From contig NZ_AAXY01000004.1 in assembly GCF_000169375.1 (NCBI RefSeq), forward strand, positions 124,001 through 188,000: DNA of 64,000 nt, in the 5' to 3' direction. Within the stretch, counting starts at the first letter, position 1. Every line of letters starts with the position of its first letter. The notes beneath the pieces were generated by a model, which saw only the letters and a program-made list of their open reading frames with translations, made no database searches and was not told the origin of the DNA. This document shows positions 13,209-64,000 of this stretch, in pieces. This DNA comes from Marinobacter sp. ELB17 (GTDB taxonomy: Bacteria > Pseudomonadota > Gammaproteobacteria > Pseudomonadales > Oleiphilaceae). Made by a program: the position numbers and the translations under genes.

Positions 13209-13262
13209 GAAAAAGCCCCTTGGCTGATCAGAACAAGCTCTCAGGCTTACTCATTAAGGAGT

Positions 13263-30912: not shown

Positions 30913-32505
30913 TTAAGGATTCTTGATATAAGCATCCTTGCGCAAGTAGAACCACCAGTTCACCACCAGGCAAAGGGTATAGAACACTGCGAAGCCGTAC
31001 ATGGCGTACTCTGGGGTGCCAGCCTGAATCTGCTGACCCAGTAGCTTGGGCGCAATGAAGGCACCGTAGGCGGCGATCGCGCTGGTCCAACCCAGTACCG
31101 GGCCTTTCTGCTGCTGGTCGAAAATGTAGCCGATGCTACGGAAGGTAGAGCCGTTGCCGATGCCGCTGGAGGCGAAGATCACCACGAACAGAATCATAAA
31201 GATCGCGAACAGACTGTTGGGATCGGTGGAGTTGTAGGCCAGCATCATCACGTAACCGGTGGCCACGGATGCAATCACCATAATCACCGAGATGATCTGG
31301 GTAACAATAGAACCTCCGACCTTGTCGGAAATCCAGCCGCCCACCGGGCGAATTAACGCGCCTACCAGCGGGCCAATCCACGCCCAGGTAAGTGCACTTG
31401 GTGCATCAGGATTCACAATGCGAGTAACGGTGCCGTCTGCGGCCACATCCATCATATTGCCGAAGATGACGCTGATAGACAGGGGCAATGCGGCAGAAAA
31501 GCCGATGAAGGTGCCAAAAGTCAGGATGTACAGAACGGTCATTGACCATGTGTGCTTGTTACTGAAAATCGCGAATTGATTTTTGATGCTGGGCTTGATA
31601 TCGCCCGGGATCAGTCGCAGCAGCACAACGGTCAGCACAATGGTCAGCGGCAGTGCCAGCCACATATTCATTACGCTCAACGCCCATACGCCCGCCACGG
31701 AGGTGGCCAAACCTACGCCATACAGGCCCAGAATTTTGCCAAAGGCAGACACAGGCGAGCCCGGGTTTGGGGTAACCACCTTCAGGTTGTTCATGCCAAA
31801 CCAGCCCAAAAACGCCAGCGGAACCAGAAACACCAGCCAGATAAAGCCGGCGTTTTGAATCCAGGTATCGGTGCCGGCCTCAATGCGGCCAATCAGCGTG
31901 CCGCTGGGGTTCTGCAGCGCCATTGGGTCACCGGCCAGGGCGCCAAAAATGCCCACGGTCATTACCAGCGGAATCACCACCTGCATGGTGGTTACACCAA
32001 AGTTACCCAGGCCGGCGTTCATGCCCAGGCCGTAGCCCTGCTTGCTTTTGGGGTAGAAGGTACTGATGTTGCTCATCGAGCAGGCGAAGTTACCGCCGCC
32101 AATACCGGATAGCAGCGCCAGAGCCTGAAACACAATGAATGGCGTATCCGGGTCCATCAAGGCAAACCCGGTGCCGGCCGCCGGAATCATCAGCAGTGCG
32201 GTGGTCAGAAATACCGTGTTACGGCCACCCGCAATCTTGATCATGAACGAGGCGGGGATGCGCAGCGTCGCGCCGGCCAGGCCAGCAATGGCCGACAGGG
32301 TAAAGAGCTGGTCGATGGTAAAGGGGAAACCCAGGTTCTTCATCTGGGTGGTGATCATGCCCCACATCAGCCATACCGCAAAACCCATCAGCAAGCTGGG
32401 GATAGAGATCCACAGGTTGCGCGAAGCAACGCTCTTGCCAGTCTGTTCCCAGAAGGTTTCGTTTTCGACATCCCAGTGTTCAATGTCGCCGTTGAGTTTG
32501 CCCAT
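30913..32505 (-). CDS. narK: NarK-type nitrate/nitrite MFS transporter
   Basis: 530-residue inner-membrane carrier with about 12-14 helices. I chose ATG 32505 (MGKLNGDIEHWDVEN) after the strong AAGGAGC site. MFS-NNP signatures include the glycine-rich nitrate loops GGGNFACSMSNISTFYPKSKQGYGLG (split over residues near 135-160) and the second-half FASSGIGNGSTFR, plus arginines in the RIPASF and RPVGGW regions. It imports nitrate or exchanges it for nitrite in denitrification. Its promoter has an FNR-type box, a 7-2-7 NarL palindrome and an IHF-like site. Confidence 0.92.
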   Translation of the reverse strand: MGKLNGDIEHWDVENETFWEQTGKSVASRNLWISIPSLLMGFAVWLMWGMITTQMKNLGFPFTIDQLFTLSAIAGLAGATLRIPASFMIKIAGGRNTVFLTTALLMIPAAGTGFALMDPDTPFIVFQALALLSGIGGGNFACSMSNISTFYPKSKQGYGLGMNAGLGNFGVTTMQVVIPLVMTVGIFGALAGDPMALQNPSGTLIGRIEAGTDTWIQNAGFIWLVFLVPLAFLGWFGMNNLKVVTPNPGSPVSAFGKILGLYGVGLATSVAGVWALSVMNMWLALPLTIVLTVVLLRLIPGDIKPSIKNQFAIFSNKHTWSMTVLYILTFGTFIGFSAALPLSISVIFGNMMDVAADGTVTRIVNPDAPSALTWAWIGPLVGALIRPVGGWISDKVGGSIVTQIISVIMVIASVATGYVMMLAYNSTDPNSLFAIFMILFVVIFASSGIGNGSTFRSIGYIFDQQQKGPVLGWTSAIAAYGAFIAPKLLGQQIQAGTPEYAMYGFAVFYTLCLVVNWWFYLRKDAYIKNP

Positions 32506-32569
32506 AATTGTGCTCCTTATGATACCCGGCTTGCCGGCGCGCAAAAGCGCTAGCAGGCTACTTGGCACC

Positions 32570-32612
32570 ATTGTGCAGAGAGCGGTGGGCAGTCAGACTT
32601 GAGAAAAATCAA
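32570..32612 (-). promoter_or_regulatory. narK promoter with FNR/DNR-type box
   Basis: TTGAGAAAAATCAA (32599-32612) differs by one base from the FNR consensus TTGATN4ATCAA. On the minus strand a -10-like CACAAT lies at 32575-32570, which puts the box centre near -42, the normal position for an FNR-activated class II promoter. It lies 94 bases upstream of the narK start. Confidence 0.72.
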
Positions 32613-32709: not shown

Positions 32710-32725
32710 TACCTAGCGTTAGGTA
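32710..32725. promoter_or_regulatory. NarL-type 7-2-7 palindrome, narK
   Basis: TACCTAG-CG-TTAGGTA. The half-site TACCTA is shared with the sites at 42443, 49415 and 56171. It is 205 bases upstream of the narK start and 10 bases beyond the nnrS stop, so it can only serve narK. Confidence 0.55.
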
Positions 32726-40839: not shown

Positions 40840-41457
40840 TCAGGATCGGCGCTCCTGGGCCAGCGCGCTAATGTCATCACGAATTTGCGCCACGGTCAGG
40901 TCGGGCCTTAACAACAGCCGCGCCTTACCACGAGTATCGAACACATACACACCGGCGCTGTGAGACACATTGTAGTTGTTGTTCTCATCCGGCTCGTCGT
41001 AACCGAAGGTGGTGCGATAGCGCTTTACCAGCTGCCTTAGCTGGGGCTCGCTGCCGGTCACGCCGGCAATCCGGTCACCGTAGAACTGGGTGTAGGCGGC
41101 AATCTGTTCAGGTGTGTCCCGGTTCGGGTCTACGCTGACAAACATAATGGTTACCCGTTCACGCTCGTTTTCCGGCAGCTTGTCTACGGCTTGGGATAGC
41201 CTTGCCAGCGTGGTGGGGCAAATGTCCGGGCAATGGGTGAAACCAAAAAACACCAATCGCACCTGGCCTTCAGAGTCGCTGGCGTTTACTGCTTCGCCCT
41301 GGGTGTCTATAAGCTCGAATTCCAAAGGCGGCATTAAATTGCTGATGTCTTTGCCGTGCCATTCACGGACGCTCTGATCACAGCCAACCAGGGCGAAGGT
41401 AGCGAGCAATAGCGCTATCAGAGCGGCGATTCTTGTACCTGAAATAAAAGTCGGCAT
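40840..41457 (-). CDS. SCO/SenC family copper-delivery lipoprotein
   Basis: 205-residue thioredoxin-fold copper chaperone. N-terminal lipobox ALVGC (Cys26), copper-binding CPDIC at about 78-82 and the distal His in NVSHSAGVYVFD. It loads the CuA centre of oxidases and may serve nitrous-oxide reductase-like CuA. It sits 28 bases after ctaG on the same strand; no oxidase subunit genes are nearby. Confidence 0.9.
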   Translation of the reverse strand: MPTFISGTRIAALIALLLATFALVGCDQSVREWHGKDISNLMPPLEFELIDTQGEAVNASDSEGQVRLVFFGFTHCPDICPTTLARLSQAVDKLPENERERVTIMFVSVDPNRDTPEQIAAYTQFYGDRIAGVTGSEPQLRQLVKRYRTTFGYDEPDENNNYNVSHSAGVYVFDTRGKARLLLRPDLTVAQIRDDISALAQERRS

Positions 41458-41485: not shown

Positions 41486-42340
41486 TCAGGTGTTCATGTG
41501 CCCTGATGGTTGGGTCAGCGCTGTGGCCTGTTTTGGGTAACGGCCATCTTCGTACATGGCCCGGCGTAAAATAATCAGAATACCCAGCACGCTCATCATC
41601 GCCGGCGGAATCCAGGTCAGCAAGCCGCCAAGTAGCTGGTCGGTCTCTGGCGCCAGCGGCCAGGCGCGGCCGCACACCTCGTAAACGTCGTACACCATGC
41701 CCCGTGAAAACACGATCCAGGCGCCTAGCAGCATTTGCGGAACCGCCACCAACGCCAGCAGCAGCATTCGTTTGCCGTAGCCCAGAGCGTTGGATATGTA
41801 AGGGGAACGGGGATCGAGTATCAGCCACCAGAACAGCAGGCCATCTAACAGCATGCTCCAGTTCATGACCCAGTACAGCTGGCGGCTTAGCATGGCGTCG
41901 AAGTGGATGCTGGGCGACAGCCAGAAATAAACCAGGCCCACGAACAACACTGGCGCTACGACCGGATGTTGTAAAACGCGGTAGCTCAGCCGCACGGGCG
42001 CTAGCCACGGCAGCGTGCTGCGAGGGATTTTTCGGCCCCAGAAACGCATTACCGGTAACGGGTTAGACAGGGCGATCAGAAACGGGCCCAGGTGGTGCAG
42101 AATCAGATGCTGACCCCGATGTACAAAAAACATGTATTGGGAATAGTAATCGAAAGCGGTTTGCATCACCGCGTAACACAACATCACGCCGACCACGAAG
42201 GTGACAATGCGCCCGGGGCCCGGGCGCTCACTATCGGGCATGCGTAGAAGCGCCACGCCATAAAGCGCCAACACTAGCGCATAACTGGCGATGGTCAGGG
42301 GTGAAAAATCGTAAGGCAGCAGGGCTTTGACGCCGTTCAT
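41486..42340 (-). CDS. ctaG: Cytochrome c oxidase assembly factor CtaG (caa3 type)
   Basis: 284-residue membrane protein with about seven helices. Conserved His-containing stretches HRGQHLILHHLGPFLIAL, the MNWSMLLDGLLFWW block and QMLLGAWIVFS are typical of caa3-CtaG. It is needed for CuB or CuA maturation. It is transcribed divergently from norQ across a NarL-type palindrome and forms an operon with the SCO gene. Confidence 0.85.
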   Translation of the reverse strand: MNGVKALLPYDFSPLTIASYALVLALYGVALLRMPDSERPGPGRIVTFVVGVMLCYAVMQTAFDYYSQYMFFVHRGQHLILHHLGPFLIALSNPLPVMRFWGRKIPRSTLPWLAPVRLSYRVLQHPVVAPVLFVGLVYFWLSPSIHFDAMLSRQLYWVMNWSMLLDGLLFWWLILDPRSPYISNALGYGKRMLLLALVAVPQMLLGAWIVFSRGMVYDVYEVCGRAWPLAPETDQLLGGLLTWIPPAMMSVLGILIILRRAMYEDGRYPKQATALTQPSGHMNT

Positions 42341-42442
42341 AAGTGCGACTCGAAATGGCTTTGTTGCAAGCGCTGGCGCGAATTCGTTGTTTTCCTGGGT
42401 AGATTGTTGATCGTCGTTGTTTTTAATTCAAGTAGACAGCCT

Positions 42443-42458
42443 ACCTAACCTTAGGTAT
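42443..42458. promoter_or_regulatory. NarL-type 7-2-7 palindrome, norQ/ctaG
   Basis: TACCTAA-CC-TTAGGTA is a perfect 16-bp palindrome. It lies 90 bases upstream of norQ and 103 bases upstream of ctaG, so either or both could be controlled. The last base of each half departs from the classic TACYYMT. Confidence 0.5.
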
Positions 42459-42547: not shown

Positions 42548-43336
42548 ATGACGTTTTACCACCCTGTAGGTAATGAAATTGAACTCTTCCATGCCGCCGC
42601 GAATAACGGTCTGCCGGTTCTGATCAAAGGTCCAACAGGTTGCGGGAAAACCCGCTTTGTTCGTTATATGGCCGAACAACTGAACCGACCGATTTATACC
42701 GTCGCCTGCCACGACGATCTGACGGCAGCTGACTTGGTGGGGCGGCATCTGATTGGCCCGCAAGGCACCTACTGGCAGGACGGCCCGCTGACCCGTGCCG
42801 TTCGTGAAGGCGGCATTTGTTATTTGGATGAAGTCGTAGAAGCGCGCAAAGACACCACGGTTGTACTGCACCCGCTGGCGGACGACCGCCGCGAGCTGCC
42901 GATTGAGCGCACCGGTGAGCTGCTGACGGCAGCACCGGGTTTTATGCTGGTTGTGTCCTATAACCCGGGTTATCAAAGTCTGTTGAAAGGCATGAAACCA
43001 AGCACCCGCCAACGATTTGTATCGCTGCGGTTTGATTATCCTTCGGCGGAGATAGAACAAGCCATCGTGATGGAAGAATCCGGTTGTGACCGCGACCTGG
43101 CAAAGCAACTGGTTAGCCTGGCAACAGCGCTGCGTAACCTAAAAGACCACGATCTGGAAGAAGCCGCATCCACGCGGTTGCTGATTCACACAGCTCTGCT
43201 GATACGGGCCGGTTTGCCAACAGCGGTCGCCTGTCGCGCGGGCATGATTGAGCCGCTTTCAGACGACGAAGCAACAGTCAGTTCTTTAATGGAGGTGGTA
43301 TATGCAGTATTCGGGCGCCCAGACGAAACCCGCTAG
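42548..43336 (+). CDS. norQ: NorQ/NirQ, MoxR-type AAA ATPase for NO reductase activation
   Basis: 262-residue AAA+ ATPase of the CbbQ/NirQ/NorQ family, which works with the VWA protein NorD to insert the non-heme iron of cNOR. Walker A is GPTGCGKT (about 30-37) and Walker B GGICYLDEV (about 94-102). The sensor region SYNPGYQSLLKGMKPSTRQRF contains the arginine finger. It is separated from the rest of the nor genes, which are convergent on the other strand. Confidence 0.92.
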   Translation: MTFYHPVGNEIELFHAAANNGLPVLIKGPTGCGKTRFVRYMAEQLNRPIYTVACHDDLTAADLVGRHLIGPQGTYWQDGPLTRAVREGGICYLDEVVEARKDTTVVLHPLADDRRELPIERTGELLTAAPGFMLVVSYNPGYQSLLKGMKPSTRQRFVSLRFDYPSAEIEQAIVMEESGCDRDLAKQLVSLATALRNLKDHDLEEAASTRLLIHTALLIRAGLPTAVACRAGMIEPLSDDEATVSSLMEVVYAVFGRPDETR

Positions 43337-47421: not shown

Positions 47422-48846
<1,425 letters not shown>

Positions 48847-49296
48847 TTAACCTTCGATGTTGGGTGGCCAGCCGTTATCGTCAATCTTGGACGTCCATTC
48901 GAGGAACGATGCCAGATCTTCGATTTCCTGGTCTGTAAGGTTGAATTGCGGCATTTGCCGGCGGCCGGGTGCGTTGGTGGGCATAGCGTTCATCCAGGCG
49001 TTCATGTACGCCTTGAACACGTCGCTGTTGCCGGCGCCGCGGCGGTCGAATACGTTGGCCAATTCCGGTGCAAAGTAAGCGCCTTCACCCATAAGAGAAT
49101 GACAGCCAACGCAGTTGTTGTTTTCCCAGACGTGTTTGCCATTAACAACCTGCTCGGTGAGCTGGTCCCGGTTATCTCGCTCGGGCAACGCCCGCGATTG
49201 AGTGTCAAAAGTCAGAATCAGAAACAGCAGGATGAAGAACGTGCTTCCTCCCAAATAGATGTTTCTGGCCATGCTTTTGGTAAAGCGTTCGGCCAT
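48847..49296 (-). CDS. norC: Nitric oxide reductase subunit C (NorC)
   Basis: 149-residue membrane-anchored cytochrome c. One N-terminal helix (about 15-32), then the heme site CVGCH (about 62-66), and the axial Met in RRQMPQFNLTDQEIEDLASFL. It takes electrons from cytochrome c and passes them to NorB. It is the first gene of norC-norB-fd-norD-norE-norF, with a NarL palindrome 119 bases upstream. Confidence 0.96.
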   Translation of the reverse strand: MAERFTKSMARNIYLGGSTFFILLFLILTFDTQSRALPERDNRDQLTEQVVNGKHVWENNNCVGCHSLMGEGAYFAPELANVFDRRGAGNSDVFKAYMNAWMNAMPTNAPGRRQMPQFNLTDQEIEDLASFLEWTSKIDDNGWPPNIEG

Positions 49297-49414
49297 TGGA
49301 ATGCCCCCTTGGTTGATTTGAACTACCTGACGAACTCATTAATGAGCCAAAAAGATGTATCAGTAATGAATATTATCGGTCGTTGTGAGGTTTCATGCCA
49401 GCAGGCAAGGGAGT

Positions 49415-49430
49415 TACCTCTAAAGAGGTA
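49415..49430. promoter_or_regulatory. Perfect NarL/NarP-type 7-2-7 site, norC
   Basis: TACCTCT-AA-AGAGGTA: both halves fit TACYYMT and the whole 16 bp is a perfect palindrome. It lies between the cation transporter gene stop and norC, 119 bases upstream of the norC ATG. I found no good FNR box in this gap. Confidence 0.75.
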
Positions 49431-49456: not shown

Positions 49457-50104
49457 TTAGCGGAACACCGTCTTTACTTCGGTGCCAGCGGGGCTTTTGG
49501 CCTCAGAAATATCCATTCGAGCATGGCGCACAACGCTGATACCGGCCGATATGGCCAGGGTGCCCATAATGGCGGCAACACTCAGATCCGGCCAGGCGCT
49601 TCCCGTTCCGAACACGCCCAGAGCGGCTGCCATCACGGCCAGGTTACCAATGGCGTCATTTCGGCTGCACAGCCAGACTGAACGCATATCAGAGTCGCCA
49701 TCCCGAAACCGAAAAAGCACCAATGCAACGCCTACGTTGGCAATCAGCGCCAGCAGCCCAATGGTGCCCATGGTAAACGGTTCGGGGGTAACGCCCTGTT
49801 CCATCACCCACAGCGCACGGGCCAAAACCACTATGCCGAACACCACCATGGTAATACCTTTAACCATGGCCGCGCGCCCGCGCCAGAGCATGCCGAGGGA
49901 CAGAACGGAAAGTGACAGAATGTAGTTGGCGCTATCGCCAAAGAAGTCGATGGCGTCCGCCATCAGGGAAACGGAGCCAGATTGCAAACTGGCAGCACCT
50001 TCCACAAAAAACATGGCCAGATTAACCCAAAGGGCAATCAACAGTGCGCGACGAAAACCCGGAGCCGGGGATTTTAGTACTGGACCAGAGCAACCGCACG
50101 CCAT
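49457..50104 (-). CDS. Short CDF-type cation transporter
   Basis: 215-residue inner-membrane protein with about six helices. I chose ATG 50104 (MACGCSGP) after AAGGAGG. The metal motif of helix 2 is DAIDFFGDSAN (Asp in place of His) and that of helix 5 is SRNDAIGN. No large C-terminal cytosolic domain is present. A MerR-type promoter with the CadR operator precedes it, so it is likely a Cd/Pb/Zn exporter. Confidence 0.83.
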   Translation of the reverse strand: MACGCSGPVLKSPAPGFRRALLIALWVNLAMFFVEGAASLQSGSVSLMADAIDFFGDSANYILSLSVLSLGMLWRGRAAMVKGITMVVFGIVVLARALWVMEQGVTPEPFTMGTIGLLALIANVGVALVLFRFRDGDSDMRSVWLCSRNDAIGNLAVMAAALGVFGTGSAWPDLSVAAIMGTLAISAGISVVRHARMDISEAKSPAGTEVKTVFR

Positions 50105-50133
50105 ACACACCTCCTTTTATTAAGTAGGTGTGT

Positions 50134-53955: not shown

Positions 53956-55980
53956 CTAAGCCGTGGCAACCTTGAACTCGTTGGCCAGGTCATGCAGTTG
54001 GCGCGCCAGGCGAGCCTGCTCTTCAGTCACCTGGGTGATTTCCTGGGAGCCGGTCAGGGTCAGCAGTGCTGATTCGCTAACCGATTCCATATTGCCGGCG
54101 ACCTCTCGGGTGACCGATACCTGCTCCTCAGAAGAAGCGGCAATCTGCGTGGCCATGCCTGAAATGTTGTTAACGTCGGCCAGAATATCCGCAAAGGTCT
54201 GTTCCAGCTCTTCGGCCTGTTGGCTGGTTTCAGTCGCCAACTTGTGGCTACTTATGATGGATCGGCTGGCGCTTGCGGTCATATCCGTCACGCCCTTGAT
54301 GATATCTTCGATGCGGGTGGTCGATTCATGGGTCTGGCGTGCCAGAGTCCGCACTTCGTCGGCTACCACCGCAAAGCCGCGGCCGTGCTCACCGGCGCGG
54401 GCGGCTTCAATAGCGGCGTTCAGGGCCAGCAGGTTGGTCTGTTCTGCTACCTGACGAATCACATTGACTACGTCACTGATATGGCTGCTGCGCTCCTCCA
54501 GCTCTGCAATCACCTTATTAACCTGCTGCACCGAATCTGCCAGCGAGCGGATACGGCTAACACTGCTGTGCAGCACTTGCTCGCCGGTTTTGCTTTTCGC
54601 CATAGCGCTGTTGGCCGCATCTGCCACCTGCTGCACGTTGCGTGAAATTTCTTCTGACGTGGCAGACATTTCTTCGGTTGCCGCTGCAACCTGCTCGATC
54701 TGTTGCTGCTGGCTGCGGATTTGCTCCGCATTATGGCTCGCGGTGGAGCTGGTCTCTTCGGTCGCCGTGGCTAGCTGTATGCTGGACTGGTCGATCAGTT
54801 TCAGTGCTCGCCCGAACACACTGAATAACTCGTTGGTGGCTTTACCAAAGGACCCAAGTTCATCGCTGCTGGTAATCACAATGGGCTGGCGCAGATCTTT
54901 GTTGTCCATGGCAAAACGGATGCCGTCGAGTAAATTGGTTATTTGCCGGTTAATCGCATGAACAAGAAGTACCATCAGCACCAGGGCAATCAGCGCAGCC
55001 AGGCTCGCCAGCACTATTGCGGTGATAAGTTTTGAGCGAGCGTTGTCAACGTGGTGTTGGGCTCTGTTGTGGGTTTCATCCAATATCAGGATGCGAACCT
55101 GGTTCATGGCTTGAATACGGTTGGTGGTTGCGTCGAACCATCCATTGGTATCAAGAGCGTATATACCCGCGGCCGAACTGAACAGTGTGTTGCGCATTTC
55201 AGTCAAGGCAAGGCTTTGGTTCGACGCTTCAAAATCCACCAGTCTCTGGCGCCGTGGTGAGGCCCTCGGCAGCATGGCAATGGCTGCGCTCATGTGCCCG
55301 CTTTGTGCACCGGCTAATTCAGCCAGCTGCTGCAGACGGCCCAGATTGAAATCACCGGCGTTGATCAATGATGCGCCCTGGGCCCTCTCAAACCCTGCGT
55401 TCTCGGCGGCCTCAGCCATATTCAAATAAGCGTTTACCTGGCGGGTCAGTTCGGCGTTGTCGGTGCGGCGGATAATCAATGGAATGCGGTCAATCAGCTG
55501 GCGGATCAAAGCCGTATAGCGCGCTGCTGATTCCGGGGGTGTCACGCGGCCATCCAGTACGGATTGACGCAAAGTGGCCAGGTTCGACAGGCTGCTTTGA
55601 GATTCTTCGATAGTGGACAGAACACCAGGATCAAATTTTTGGGCCTGCATCATATCGGGTAGCTGGCGACGGTATTCTGCCAGCTGTTGATCGGTGCGCT
55701 GTTGCTGGGTTTGCAGCGCCTGTACTGCGGCGCGTCTTTCATCGCTGCCGGCAACGCTGGACAACACAACGGCGGAACGGCCGCGCTCTACCTGAAGAGC
55801 GTCGAGCACAGGATCGGCAAGGGCCACGAGGTCAGTCATGCCCTGCAGTTCACGCATCCCTTTTAAATCACCATAGTTGCTGATGACGCTTTGGCTGGCG
55901 AACAACAGCATGGCCAAAAGCACCGGTAAAACAAGAGCTATCAGTTTGCTGCGCATAGATAACGATCTAAGCCAATTCAT
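53956..55980 (-). CDS. Methyl-accepting chemotaxis protein with nitrate/nitrite-sensing (NIT) domain
   Basis: 674-residue chemoreceptor. TM1 is at about 10-30. The periplasmic NIT domain (about 35-310) has its [14 protein letters not shown] opening and [17 protein letters not shown] motifs. TM2 at about 325-345 is followed by HAMP and the cytoplasmic signalling domain with the hairpin tip [28 protein letters not shown]. It most likely guides the cell toward nitrate. It is divergent from ubiU across a region with NarL and FNR sites. Confidence 0.9.
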
Positions 55981-56170: not shown

Positions 56171-56186
56171 TACCTATCTAGGGGTA
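56171..56186. promoter_or_regulatory. NarL/NarP-type 7-2-7 site, ubiU/mcp
   Basis: TACCTAT-CT-AGGGGTA: both halves (TACCTAT and, in reverse, TACCCCT) fit TACYYMT exactly. It is 82 bases upstream of ubiU and 191 bases upstream of the NIT chemoreceptor gene. Confidence 0.72.
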
Positions 56187-56198
56187 TCTGGTGGGCCC

Positions 56199-56246
56199 CT
56201 GACAAAGGTCAATGCACTGCAGATTGCACGGCGTATGGTTTCGTAA
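56199..56246 (+). promoter_or_regulatory. ubiU promoter with FNR/DNR box
   Basis: CTGACAAAGGTCAA (56199-56212) differs from TTGACN4GTCAA by one base. TATGGT at 56234-56239 is a -10 candidate, placing the box centre at about -41. It lies 13 bases after the NarL site. Confidence 0.68.
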
Positions 56247-57276: not shown

Positions 57277-58191
57277 ATGCTCAAACTCTCATTAGGCCCT
57301 GTACTTTGGTTTTGGTCACGGCAAACCGTGTTTGATTTCTACGCCAACGCTGCGGAATGGCCGGTAGACACGGTGTACCTGGGTGAAACCGTATGCGCCC
57401 GCCGCCGCGAACTGAAACTCGCCGACTGGCTAGAAATCGCGGACGTACTGAAAGACGCTGGCAAGCAGGTGGTGCTGTCCACCCAAACCCTGATTGAATC
57501 CGAAGCTGATCTGCGCCTGCTGCGCCGCATTTGCAGTCAACAGGATTACCTGATTGAAGCCAATGACCAAAGCGCGCTGCAGCTGGCCAGTAGCAATAAT
57601 TTGCCCTTTGTAACGGGGCCAGGCTTGAACATTTACAACGTTGCGACGTTGAAGGTGCTGGCAAAGCGGGGTTTGAAGGGATGGAACCTGCCCGTGGAGC
57701 TGGGCCGTGAAACTCTGGTCGAGCTGATTACAGAGCTAAAAGCCGAAGGCCTGGATTTGCCGGCGGAAGTGTTTGCCTGGGGTTTTTTACCGTTGGCCTG
57801 GTCGTCGCGCTGCTTTACCGCACGCCATTACAACCTGCCAAAAGACAACTGTGAATTTCGCTGCCTACAGCATCCAGATGGTTTGGAACTGCGGTCCCGT
57901 GAAGCCCAGGAGCTGTTTCGCCTGAACGGTACATCGACCTTGTCTGGCGCCCGTTATGATTTATTGCGGGAGCTTCCGGATATGGTCGCCATGGGTGTTG
58001 ATACCGTGCGTTTGAGTCCGGAACACCAAGGTATGGCCGAGGTGGTGCAGCGCTTTGATCAGGTGCGACGGGGTGAAATGCCAGATATTGACCCACTGCA
58101 ATTGGTGGAAGCGCCCCCCTGTAACGGCTACTGGTACGGCAAACCGGGGATGGATCTGGTGGCGGATCGGCTTTGGGCACCGATGGTATAA
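57277..58191 (+). CDS. ubiV: UbiV, O2-independent ubiquinone hydroxylation protein (U32 family)
   Basis: 304-residue partner of UbiU, also with a 4Fe-4S cluster. I chose ATG 57277 after AAGGTG, which overlaps the ubiU stop; a GTG at 57265 is an alternative. SLGPVLWFW opens the protein, [17 protein letters not shown] and [21 protein letters not shown] hold the four cluster cysteines, and [12 protein letters not shown] closes it. Its presence shows that the cell makes ubiquinone anaerobically, in line with denitrification. Confidence 0.92.
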
Positions 58192-58267
58192 AGCGTCATT
58201 AAATTTCCTTACGCTGCGCCTAAAACATGTATATAATATAAATCTATTTTGTTGTCGGAGCCTCACC

Positions 58268-59359
58268 ATGTTTTTTTGGCAGTACAAACAGCGGGCTAAA
58301 GTGCTTGAGCTGGAGTTGTCTGCGGTACATAACAGTGTGGCGCAGCTCAACGAAGACAAACGTCTTCTTGAACTCCGGTTCGAAGCAGAAGCCAGCGCGC
58401 TAGAGGAGGTAAAAACGCAGCAGGCGTTGAGCCGACGTTTGATGGCAGGGCTAGGCCAGTTTGGCAATTCACTGAAAGAACTGAAGGGTTCTTTCAGTGA
58501 ATTGTCGCAGCTTCTGGGGTCCCGCCGCAGTGAGGCGCTGAGGACACGAGATGAATCCGGACAAGTAAGAGACCGGATGGTATCGCTGGTGCAAAGACTA
58601 GGAGATGCCCGCAATAGTGCTGCCAGCTCGGCACGGGATATGGACTCTTTGGAATCTGAAACTGGCAGCATTACATCACTGGTGGATGTAATTGACGGTG
58701 TTTCTGACCAAACGTCGCTGTTGGCATTGAATGCGAGCATTGAGGCTGCCCGCGCTGGCGAACATGGGCGCGGGTTCAGTGTGGTGGCAACAGAGGTCAG
58801 AAATCTTGCCTTCCGTGCAGGCGAGGCTACCCAAGAAATTGAGTCAGCCATCGAGCGTATTCGAACGCAGACAAAAATTGTGGCCGGGGCCAGCCGTTCT
58901 AATAGCGAAGAAATGGAAAAGCTTGCCGCAGAGGCTGATGGCGCACGCGAACGGTTGCTGATGTTGATTGATATGGCCGGTACGTCTTCGGATGCATTAG
59001 GGCACGCCGCTGTATTGTCTGAAATTGAGTTGGCCAATCTTGAAGAGCTCGACATTAAGCTGACCGTATACCAGATTCTGGCAGGTCTTTCTGACAAGGC
59101 AGCCGACAGCTTGCCTGACGCCACGGAGTGCGCATTGGGGCAATGGTATTATCAAGGGGGAGGCCATAAACAGTTCGCGGGCCAGGTGGATTTTAGAGCC
59201 ATTGAAGAGCCCCATCGGCTGGTACACATTTATGCCAAAGACGCTGTGCGAGCTCATCATGACGGCCGCGCAGAAGATGCTTTAAAGGCCTTGGAGGCGA
59301 TGGAAAGCAACAACCTGGACGTGATGGCGCGCTTGCGTCGCTTGGTTGCGAGAGGCTAG
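58268..59359 (+). CDS. Soluble chemoreceptor-like protein with degenerate CZB domain
   Basis: 363-residue protein without transmembrane segments. An N-terminal coiled coil (about 5-60) is followed by a short MCP signalling domain with [27 protein letters not shown], and a C-terminal chemoreceptor zinc-binding domain with [12 protein letters not shown] and [14 protein letters not shown]. Three of the four CZB zinc ligands (Cys and two His) are present; the first His is replaced by Glu in [17 protein letters not shown] at 58232-58237 may be its -10. It lies just after ubiV. Confidence 0.83.
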
Positions 59360-59588: not shown

Positions 59589-60302
59589 CTATACCTGTTC
59601 CCGCAGCAGCATCGTTTTGATATGGCCAATGGCCTTCATGGGGTTGAGCCCTTTCGGACAGTACGCCATGCAATTACCTATCCCACGGCAGCGAAACACA
59701 CTGAACGGATCGCCCAGTTTTGCCAAACGCTCGCGGGTGGCAGTGTCCCGTGAGTCCACCAAAAACCGGTTAGCTTGAAGCAAGCCCGCTGGTCCGATGT
59801 ATTTCTCCGGATTCCACCACCAAGACGGACAGGCAGATGAGCAGCAAGCACAGAGAATGCATTCGTACAATCCATCAAGTTTTGCGCGGTCCTCCGGGCT
59901 TTGCAGTCTTTCGATCGCTGGATTTGGGGTGTCGGTGATCAACCATGGTTGAATACGTTCGTACTGCTTGAAGAACAGTGCTTGGTCAACCACCAAATCG
60001 CGGATCACGGGCATACCTGGTAGTGGGCGAATTTCCAGAACGTTCTTCTTACCCAAGGCGTCCGCGACCGCACTAATGCAACCCAGGCCATTGCGGCCAT
60101 TCATGCTGAGCCCGTCAGAGCCACAAACACCTTCTCGACAAGAGCGCCGGAACGTGAGCGTGGTATCCCGGGTTTTCAGGTGCTCCAGTACATCCAGCAC
60201 CATGCGGCTTCGGAACTCGTCGCCCACCTCAACATCCTGGTTGTAAGGTATTTCATCCTGCTCGGGGTTATAGCGGTATAGCCTGACGATAAAACCACTC
60301 AT
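59589..60302 (-). CDS. Orphan succinate dehydrogenase/fumarate reductase iron-sulfur subunit (SdhB-like)
   Basis: 237-residue protein that closely follows SdhB. The 2Fe-2S motif is SCREGVCGSDGLSMNGRNGLGC, and the 4Fe-4S/3Fe-4S ligands are in CILCACCSSACP and CRGIGNCMAYCPKGL. I chose ATG 60302 (MSGFIVRLYRYNPEQDE); a longer frame upstream is noise. The flavoprotein (sdhA) and membrane anchors (sdhCD) are absent here, so it is either a spare subunit for an sdh complex elsewhere or works with other partners. Confidence 0.88.
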   Translation of the reverse strand: MSGFIVRLYRYNPEQDEIPYNQDVEVGDEFRSRMVLDVLEHLKTRDTTLTFRRSCREGVCGSDGLSMNGRNGLGCISAVADALGKKNVLEIRPLPGMPVIRDLVVDQALFFKQYERIQPWLITDTPNPAIERLQSPEDRAKLDGLYECILCACCSSACPSWWWNPEKYIGPAGLLQANRFLVDSRDTATRERLAKLGDPFSVFRCRGIGNCMAYCPKGLNPMKAIGHIKTMLLREQV

Positions 60303-60746
60303 GGCGTTGTTCCCCCAAGCATCGGCTTGATGCCCTAGAAAAAAAGAAGTATTCAGTTTGAAGGTTAGCAGATGATCCAAACAAACAAGCGGAATGTGCA
60401 AAAAAAGAACCCGATGCCACGCGCCATCAATTAACGATGGTAAATTCATTCTGGCGGATGCTGTTACATATCCAACCTGCCGATTTCTCGCGATTGCAGG
60501 CGGGCCTCGGTCTGCTGGTTGGCGGCCAGTTCCCGAAACAGATCCGCTTCCCGAGTGTTTTGGGCCAGGAAAGATCGTCATCGCCTTGGCTGCTGTCCAG
60601 GGTTTCATATTGCTTCTCCAGCGTTTCGTGGTAGCAGCCGAGAGTGCAACGGGCCCGAAAGCGTATACGCCAGAACCTGTTCTAATTACCAGCTTGCGGG
60701 TGCACAGACAGATCTCGGGTGACGCCGAACAATAAGCCCCCAGTCG
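60303..60746. other. Gene-free stretch with possible degraded coding remnant
   Basis: About 440 bases without a credible gene. On the minus strand one frame reads LEKQYETLDSSQGDDDLSWP and, after a one-base shift near a CCAAAAC run (about 60570), continues as READLFRELAANQQTEARLQ then a stop. This looks like a decayed protein end, but I cannot assign a family. It may also hold the promoter of the sdhB-like gene. Confidence 0.35.
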
Positions 60747-63268: not shown

Positions 63269-63928
63269 TCAGCTCTTGTGCAGACCCTCTTCAACAGCCC
63301 ACACTGCGACTTCCACCCGCGACCGCAAATTGAGTTTTTTTAGCAAGTGCTTCACGTGCACTTTGACCGTGCCGTCGCTGATATCCAGCTTGCGGCCGAT
63401 CATCTTGTTAGACAGACCTTCGGCGATGAGATTCAGAATGTCTTTTTCTCTTGGCGTCAGGCTGTCGAAGTCTGGCCGCGCCGGCTGTTGCGATTTGTTA
63501 TTGCGCAGTGCGTCTGCCAGCAGGGAGGTAAGGCGTTCGCTGATGACCAGCTTTCCTACGGCGGCCTGGTGCAGCTGTTTAATCATATCCTCCGGTTCCA
63601 TATCCTTTAGAAGATAGCCGTCGGCACCAGCGCGTAATGCTTCAACCACATCGTCTTGCTGATCTGACACGGTGAACATAATAATGCGCGAGCTGATGTT
63701 GTGGGCTCGTAGCTGCCGCAAGGCTTCAATACCGCTCACATCCGGCATATTCAGATCCATCAGGATCAGGTCTGGCTCCAGTTCCAGAGCAATGCGCACG
63801 CCGTCCGTCGCATTGCTGGCCTCGCCTGCTACCTCAAGATCTGGTTCCATTTCGATCAGTTGCTTGATGCCCTTGCGCAATAAAGGGTGATCATCTATCA
63901 ACAATATGCTTGCAGGTGTATCAGACAT
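63269..63928 (-). CDS. narL: NarL-family nitrate/nitrite response regulator
   Basis: 219-residue two-component regulator. The receiver domain (about 1-125) has the acidic DD pair in LIDDHPLLR, phospho-acceptor D57 in [10 protein letters not shown], Thr/Ser in IIMFTVS and Lys in GYLLKDM. The LuxR-type HTH is [43 protein letters not shown]. It closely follows NarL. It is the likely binder of the TACYYMT palindromes found in this window. ATG 63928 is supported by AAAGAGAGAG. Confidence 0.92.
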
Positions 63929-63954
63929 GGCTCTCTCTTTGTGTGGGTAAACCG

Positions 63955-64000
63955 TCAATTGGAATCCGCGGTTTGCGGGTTGTTTGCCGGTTTAACCGGG
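63955..64000 (-). CDS. Possible 3' end of an upstream gene (narX-like sensor kinase)
   Basis: A frame running in from the right edge ends [14 protein letters not shown] with TGA at 63957-63955, 27 bases before narL. Sensor kinases often end after a PV-type strand, and narX usually lies just upstream of narL. Another frame is also open through the narL start, so this is tentative. Confidence 0.3.

Follow-up and report, generated by a model that had tools for sequence, protein, structure and literature searches.

Putative NarL-type operators in denitrification and chemoreceptor promoters of Marinobacter

In Marinobacter sp. ELB17, a cluster of genes for denitrification and anaerobic metabolism contains palindromes of the NarL type that are very probably operators for the locally encoded two-component regulator NarXL. 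This reading is based on sequence comparison and concerns a stretch of 64,000 nucleotides (contig 72:124001-188000, hereafter called the window) in a genome of 4,894,744 bases (4.89 Mb) and 75 contigs. The sequence-only reading of this DNA had proposed that four such palindromes define a nitrate regulon. The proposal finds good support in the sequences for norC, for a chemoreceptor with a NIT domain and, by position, for norQ/nirS, whereas the assignment of one site to ubiU had to be given up and the site at narK is not conserved. Our analysis suggests that nitrate may directly control more denitrification genes, as well as one receptor for swimming, than has been described in Marinobacter. 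If this is true, nitrate controls NO reductase, and in the relatives also cd1 nitrite reductase, directly via NarL in a genus of marine denitrifiers, and this would bear on the timing of NO and N2O build-up. Moreover, the NIT-domain chemoreceptors, the ligand of which is unsettled, would gain a conserved regulatory link to nitrate respiration.

Four palindromes and their rarity in the genome

A string search of the window recovered all four palindromes of the sequence-only reading, and each of them is located between identified genes, as had been claimed:

32710-32725, no strand: NarL-like palindrome on the narK side, TACCTAGCGTTAGGTA (halves TACCTAG and TTAGGTA around CG), 9 bp after the stop of nnrS, 146 bp ahead of narK; weaker and lineage-specific
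42442-42457, no strand: putative NarL-type operator between ctaG and norQ, TACCTAACCTTAGGTA (halves TACCTAA and TTAGGTA around CC), located where other Marinobacter have the nirS/norQ operator
49415-49430, no strand: putative NarL-type 7-2-7 operator of norCB, TACCTCTAAAGAGGTA (halves TACCTCT and AGAGGTA around AA), centred 126 bp upstream of the start codon of norC
56171-56186, no strand: putative NarL-type operator of a divergent NIT chemoreceptor, TACCTATCTAGGGGTA (halves TACCTAT and AGGGGTA around CT), 198 bp from the receptor start and 90 bp from ubiU

The full 7-2-7 consensus for NarL and NarP of E. coli is TACYYMT-N2-AKRRGTA. The sites at 49415 and 56171 consist of inverted TACYYMT heptamers with a spacing of 2 bp and fit this consensus without any mismatch, and the sites at narK and norQ/ctaG each have two mismatches, which affect the inner (seventh) base of each half; on both points the earlier description was correct. 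The heptamer and the 7-2-7 arrangement are also stated for NarL in passages of PMC6152468. In the complete genome, exact matches to the E. coli consensus occur only twice, both inside the window, and the control with the reversed pattern yields none. The pattern TACCTN6AGGTA is present five times, with three of these sites in the window (backwards control: seven); the remaining two, at the start of glnE (L001) and within an hsdR-type gene (L005), look like background. If up to two mismatches to this pattern are allowed, the window contains 23 sites, as compared to 11.4 expected from shuffles. It had been stated beforehand that occurrence of the motif at background frequency would speak against the regulon. 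This objection fails for the near-perfect sites, which are rare and clustered in the window, but it applies to weak matches, which do not exceed the control genome-wide: With at most one mismatch to the consensus, there are 8 places in the genome versus 16 for the backwards control, so that only near-perfect sites are informative in a single genome. The site at 13248 (TACTCATTAAGGAGTT) has a single mismatch to the consensus and scores below 6 bits with a weight matrix trained on norC sites.

This matrix, for which the sites of this strain and of L017 were left out of the training, was run over 810,075 bases comprising 37 Marinobacter norB loci and the window. At a threshold of at least 12 bits it returned 77 matches, and the same matrix read backwards returned 6. 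The 77 matches fall to norC (37, of which 35 loci are the training data), nirS (31), norQ (4, including two coding matches at the start of norQ, which are discussed below), NIT/ubiU (1), narK (1) and other places (3, with the narX-narK2 site, L017:1203, among them). At lower thresholds, the matches at other places remain below the control (14 versus 36 at 9 bits).

The norC, nirS and norQ promoters

The palindrome at 49415 precedes the genes for NO reductase:

47422-48837, minus strand: norB, catalytic subunit of NO reductase (Pfam COX1 246.1 bits, haem-copper oxidase family)
48847-49296, minus strand: norC, cytochrome c subunit of NO reductase, ATG at 49296, adjoining norB (Pfam Cytochrom_C 58.9 bits)
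49366-49379, minus strand: degenerate counterpart of the norC FNR/DNR box, CCGATAATATTCAT, four mismatches, at the aligned column of the box in relatives

We take the two genes to be norB and norC on the grounds of gene order and family knowledge, the profile matches being general only. The strain is a close relative of M. gelidimuriae: The best matches of NorB are from Marinobacter, with M. gelidimuriae first at 98%, in a search from which the own genome was possibly excluded. We compared the norC promoter of the window with those of 36 Marinobacter loci, leaving out L018 that comes without upstream DNA. A NarL-type site is present at one aligned column in all 37 promoters; the sites have 27 distinct sequences, and 35 of them have exact TACC/GGTA ends. 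Relative to the E. coli consensus, twelve have no mismatch, 21 have one and four have two, and many of them have G or C in place of A at base 10. The site was also found in six out of seven further genomes of the genus, with 17.1-24.0 bits and at positions -125 to -129. In the seventh, G020 (L222), no such site is present in the 300 bp next to norC, despite the presence of narL, of norC and of a perfect FNR/DNR box; its norC is the most divergent that was tested in the genus (NorC 78%, NarL 74%).

An FNR/DNR box with no or one mismatch is found about 50 bp nearer to the gene than the NarL site in 34 of the 37 norC promoters. In most species, conservation extends past the 16 bp of the palindrome and includes the sequence ACTCCCC just downstream. 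Within the M. gelidimuriae clade, a large part of the flank is altered with the 16 bp core unchanged: three of the four members have the intact core as a perfect palindrome, and G026 carries one change (TGCC). The degenerate box CCGATAATATTCAT with its four mismatches is common to this strain, L017 and G004, and G026 has CTGATAATATTCAT (three mismatches); no FNR/DNR box with fewer than three mismatches is present in the 200 bp upstream of norC in any of these four. It is tempting to speculate, although we consider this rather doubtful, that norCB of the clade has been rewired: The canonical FNR/DNR box would have been lost and the NarL site kept, and the genes would be switched on mainly by nitrate and NarL instead of NO and DNR, in step with the exchange of NirS for NirK in this genome and with the inclusion of a NIT chemoreceptor in the regulon. 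The gene just upstream of norC (49457-50110, minus strand) encodes a CDF transporter and adjoins a gene for a CadR/PbrR-type regulator; with only 217 amino acids and two matched stretches under the family cut-off, it is possibly shortened.

A site of at least 12 bits is present in 31 of 32 Marinobacter nirS promoters, at -103 to -115 (near -105) and with 21 distinct sequences; under a stricter rule (at most one mismatch, or TACCY/RGGTA ends) the number is 27 of 32. These promoters resemble those of norC in a second feature, an FNR-type box with up to two mismatches at -65 to -77 in 31 out of 32, which is 38 bp away from the NarL-type site where this was compared. Since the species of one genus are related, all such counts across Marinobacter are not independent of each other. 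Outside the genus, we inspected 43 norB loci. Sites of at least 8 bits within 300 bp of norC or norQ were found in five of them (L055, L056, L057, L066 and L086; 10.3 to 20.2 bits), and none was reported for the other 38, including Colwellia, Shewanella and Photobacterium, a few of which lack upstream DNA. These five loci are from Hahella-type, Oleiphilaceae and Pontibacterium genomes, and the arrangement may thus predate Marinobacter.

The palindrome at 42442, with 13.3 bits in the norC-trained matrix, had been assigned to norQ and ctaG:

41486-42340, minus strand: ctaG-like gene at the place of nirS (weak CtaG match of 28.7 bits, far under the cut-off; gene order compared with L020, L022, L036 and L040)
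42548-43336, plus strand: norQ, ATPase of the CbbQ/NirQ/NorQ family (Pfam CbbQ_C 105.4 bits)

The NarL-type palindrome is indeed in place, but it belongs to the nirS/norQ operator position, with ctaG standing where nirS would be. In L020, L022, L036 and L040, the norQ-side genes are divergently paired with a gene for 574 amino acids that has the site 103-106 bp before it, and in L022 this gene encodes a cd1-type nitrite reductase (Cytochrom_D1 508.9 bits). In the genome of our strain there is no nirS: The NirS query from L022 matches with just 18.9 bits, and this to the cytochrome c part. A copper nitrite reductase, NirK, is encoded on another contig (C74, 486.6 bits), and no NarL-type site is present within 500 bp of this nirK. 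Since nirS is gone, the copper enzyme is encoded elsewhere without a site, and the palindrome is found at the nirS/norQ position, the norQ site may have been inherited and reused. A nearby match at 42557 (15.0 bits) was rejected as an operator, as it is located within the first norQ codons (MTFYxPVGN, similar in relatives); near-matches at the start of norQ are also seen in the relatives. The place of nirS in other Marinobacter is occupied here by the ctaG-like gene together with a gene for SCO1-type copper assembly (40840-41457, minus strand).

The NIT chemoreceptor, narK and neighbouring promoters

The palindrome at 56171 is situated between two divergent genes:

53956-55980, minus strand: methyl-accepting chemotaxis protein with NIT domain (Pfam NIT 134.2 bits, MCPsignal 145.5 bits)
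56199-56212, plus strand: FNR/DNR-type box of ubiU, CTGACAAAGGTCAA
56268-57263, plus strand: ubiU, anaerobic ubiquinone synthesis (NF047963 554.7 bits, cut-off 440)

It had been read as a site of ubiU, and this assignment was rejected in favour of the receptor. We examined ubiU in this strain and in 29 relatives, 30 loci in all. A divergent NIT-type receptor whose start can be read is found in 20 of them; the NIT domain itself was verified for this strain and for the three relatives tested. The site is present in 19 of these 20 loci, with 7.6 to 21.4 bits and 15 cases of at least 12 bits; L132 has the receptor and no site. The site is 179-187 bp away from the receptor start, or 198 bp in the case of this strain and G004. 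From ubiU, on the other hand, it is separated by anything between 90 and 612 bp, and in L154 and L141 extra DNA is found between the site and ubiU while the site remains with the receptor. Finally, the site is absent from all seven informative loci that keep ubiU without a NIT receptor. The variable distance to ubiU and the absence of the site where there is no receptor lead us to conclude that the site belongs with the receptor. The ubiU promoters have an FNR-type box of their own, TGA[TC]N4[AG]TCA, at -68 to -73 in 30 out of 30 loci. The comparison excludes three of the 30 loci: L148 has a match to the signalling domain alone without a receptor start, and a site with two mismatches 117 bp from ubiU; L155 is at the edge of its contig, which leaves about 626 bp of sequence before ubiU, and has a site identical to that of L141; in L128, no receptor was found and a decayed site remains. 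In 61 Marinobacter genomes, the exact consensus occurs at 29 sites, 26 of them in genomes with full UbiU, and 20 of these 26 are within 80 kb of UbiU as compared to 0 of 15 for the backwards pattern, the limit of 80 kb having been chosen after the positions were seen. Behind ubiUV, a gene for a second chemoreceptor with a zinc-binding CZB domain is found (58055-59359, plus strand), and two receptors flank the genes for anaerobic ubiquinone synthesis. An iron-sulphur protein of the SdhB/FrdB type (59589-60608, minus strand) has an N-terminus extended by about 105 residues, unless the true start of its gene is further downstream.

The features on the narK side are the following:

30913-32571, minus strand: narK-type nitrate/nitrite transporter (NarK/NarU family matches under the curated cut-offs)
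32599-32612, minus strand: FNR/DNR box of narK, TTGATTTTTCTCAA, one mismatch

The palindrome claimed for narK does exist, but among 22 Marinobacter narK loci (at least 84% identity) only this strain and its sister G004 have it. Some site of at least 10 bits is found upstream in seven of the 22 loci, those two included, at differing places. For the narK palindrome alone, a chance origin is a serious possibility that falls only somewhat short of an even balance. The promoter of the nar operon (narX-narK2), which is located just outside the window, contains a TACCTCY or TACCCCC heptamer in 21 out of 21 Marinobacter, followed by TTGAGGATA in 16 of the 21; the second half is off-consensus, and only the first heptamer fits in the relatives. 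The combination of promoter location and conservation is thus seen at norC (37/37 plus 6/7), nirS (31/32) and the narX-narK2 heptamer (21/21), but not at narK (2/22). Upstream of nosR (NosR 1164.3 bits), two overlapping NarL-like sites with two mismatches each are present at L013:16879-16908 (contig 72:200879-200908), and a site of at least 10 bits is present in 10 out of 26 promoters of nosR; these sites are weak and suggestive only.

The candidate regulator, rival explanations and known systems

A NarL-type regulator had been noticed at the right end of the window, and profile searches agree:

63269-63958, minus strand: narL, response regulator (NF007935 NarL 335.9 bits, cut-off 250; 274.9 bits to E. 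coli NarL 1a04)

The protein consists of a receiver (Response_reg) and a GerE domain. In the alignment to 1a04, its recognition helix (TVKVHVKH) agrees with E. coli NarL at every residue; the bases of the DNA are contacted by this helix, and the DNA-contact residues of the E. coli protein are K188, V189 and K192. Directly upstream of narL and outside the window, a kinase gene, narX, codes for PilJ, HAMP and HisKA_3 domains; NarX is its best family with 462.7 bits, although the cut-off of 578 is not reached. NarL is paired with a NarX-type kinase, and narG is nearby at C72:191451 (2339.3 bits). The NarL orthologue is absent from 9 of 38 Marinobacter genomes, and since norC is absent from the same nine, they are uninformative as natural knock-outs. 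Ten narL-bearing genomes were checked: seven have a clear norC, G033 has a match of 39% only, and G006 and G037 have none. Among the 19 genomes tested, none had nor in the absence of narL, and the co-occurrence of narL and norC can thus not separate cause from gene loss.

We infer that NarL is the protein that binds the palindromes and that binding depends on its phosphorylation. In the presence of nitrate, NarX would phosphorylate NarL, and a NarL dimer would bind the 7-2-7 site, each heptamer being contacted by one of its C-terminal domains. At norC, and in the relatives at nirS, NarL would act together with an FNR/DNR protein on a site nearer to the gene by about 50 bp at norC and by 38 bp at nirS, activation being the better guess for the kind of action; norC and nirS would thus answer to nitrate plus low oxygen and NO. 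The site located 179-198 bp before the start codon would put the NIT chemoreceptor under nitrate control.

Another response regulator of the LuxR type with the same fold might bind these sites instead of NarL. NarL-type proteins have 37 matches in the genome, half-sites can be common to related regulators, and the retention of narL and norC without a site in G020 counts against NarL as the binder. We nevertheless regard this idea as improbable, as there is a single NarL orthologue (481.5 bits; the next among the matches listed has 106 bits) that is encoded in the same cluster, and as both the consensus of the sites and the recognition helix are those of E. coli NarL. It is even less likely that the conserved blocks represent a promoter core, a leader structure or the target of a different palindrome-binding factor, and that their likeness to NarL sites is accidental: The conservation beyond the 16 bp at norC would be in agreement with this, whereas the preserved core within a largely changed flank in the M. 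gelidimuriae clade and the recurrence of the same motif at nirS and the NIT receptor are not. Finally, all four palindromes could be chance matches, an idea that draws on the two mismatches in two of them, on the poor conservation at narK and on the background level of weak matches genome-wide. Given the rarity of the motif in the genome and its genus-wide positional conservation at norC, nirS and the NIT receptor, we consider this highly improbable; for the norC and NIT-receptor sites, chance is already disfavoured.

As putative operators for NarXL, the palindromes share the heptamer, the spacing and the inverted arrangement with the NarL/NarP system of E. coli, and the recognition helix of the regulator is the same; they differ in their location at norC, nirS and a NIT chemoreceptor. 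M. nauticus DSM 50418 (L042), which we take to be M. hydrocarbonoclasticus under another name, has TACCCATCAAGAGGTA in its norC promoter, an exact match to the consensus. In contrast, the passages of PMC6152468 on M. hydrocarbonoclasticus describe NarL sites only upstream of nar; features in common with that organism are the location of narXL next to nar, FNR/DNR boxes in front of nir, nor and nos, and a NarL heptamer at narK. For P. aeruginosa, passages of PMC5703892 and PMC8139620 give narK1K2GHJI, dnr and nirQ as the NarXL regulon, norCB and nirS are activated by DNR according to the latter, and NirQ needs both DNR and NarL according to the former. As far as these passages go, NarL works with FNR-type regulators in P. 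aeruginosa, as it would in Marinobacter, and the NarL requirement of NirQ, a member of the NorQ family, fits the norQ site observed here; the difference is that Marinobacter has NarL-type sites directly at norC and, in the relatives, at nirS. In searches of open-licence PMC papers, the titles and abstract openings listed mention neither a NIT receptor controlled by NarL nor, for Marinobacter, such a control of norC. The chemoreceptors McpN and PA4520 of P. aeruginosa have likewise been studied in the context of nitrate: Passages of PMC6381276 report that the mcpN transcript is lowered by nitrate and that a narX mutation has no effect on it, and that the NIT domain of PA4520 bound neither nitrate nor nitrite. 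Different from what these passages describe, the NIT receptor of Marinobacter has a conserved NarL-type site.
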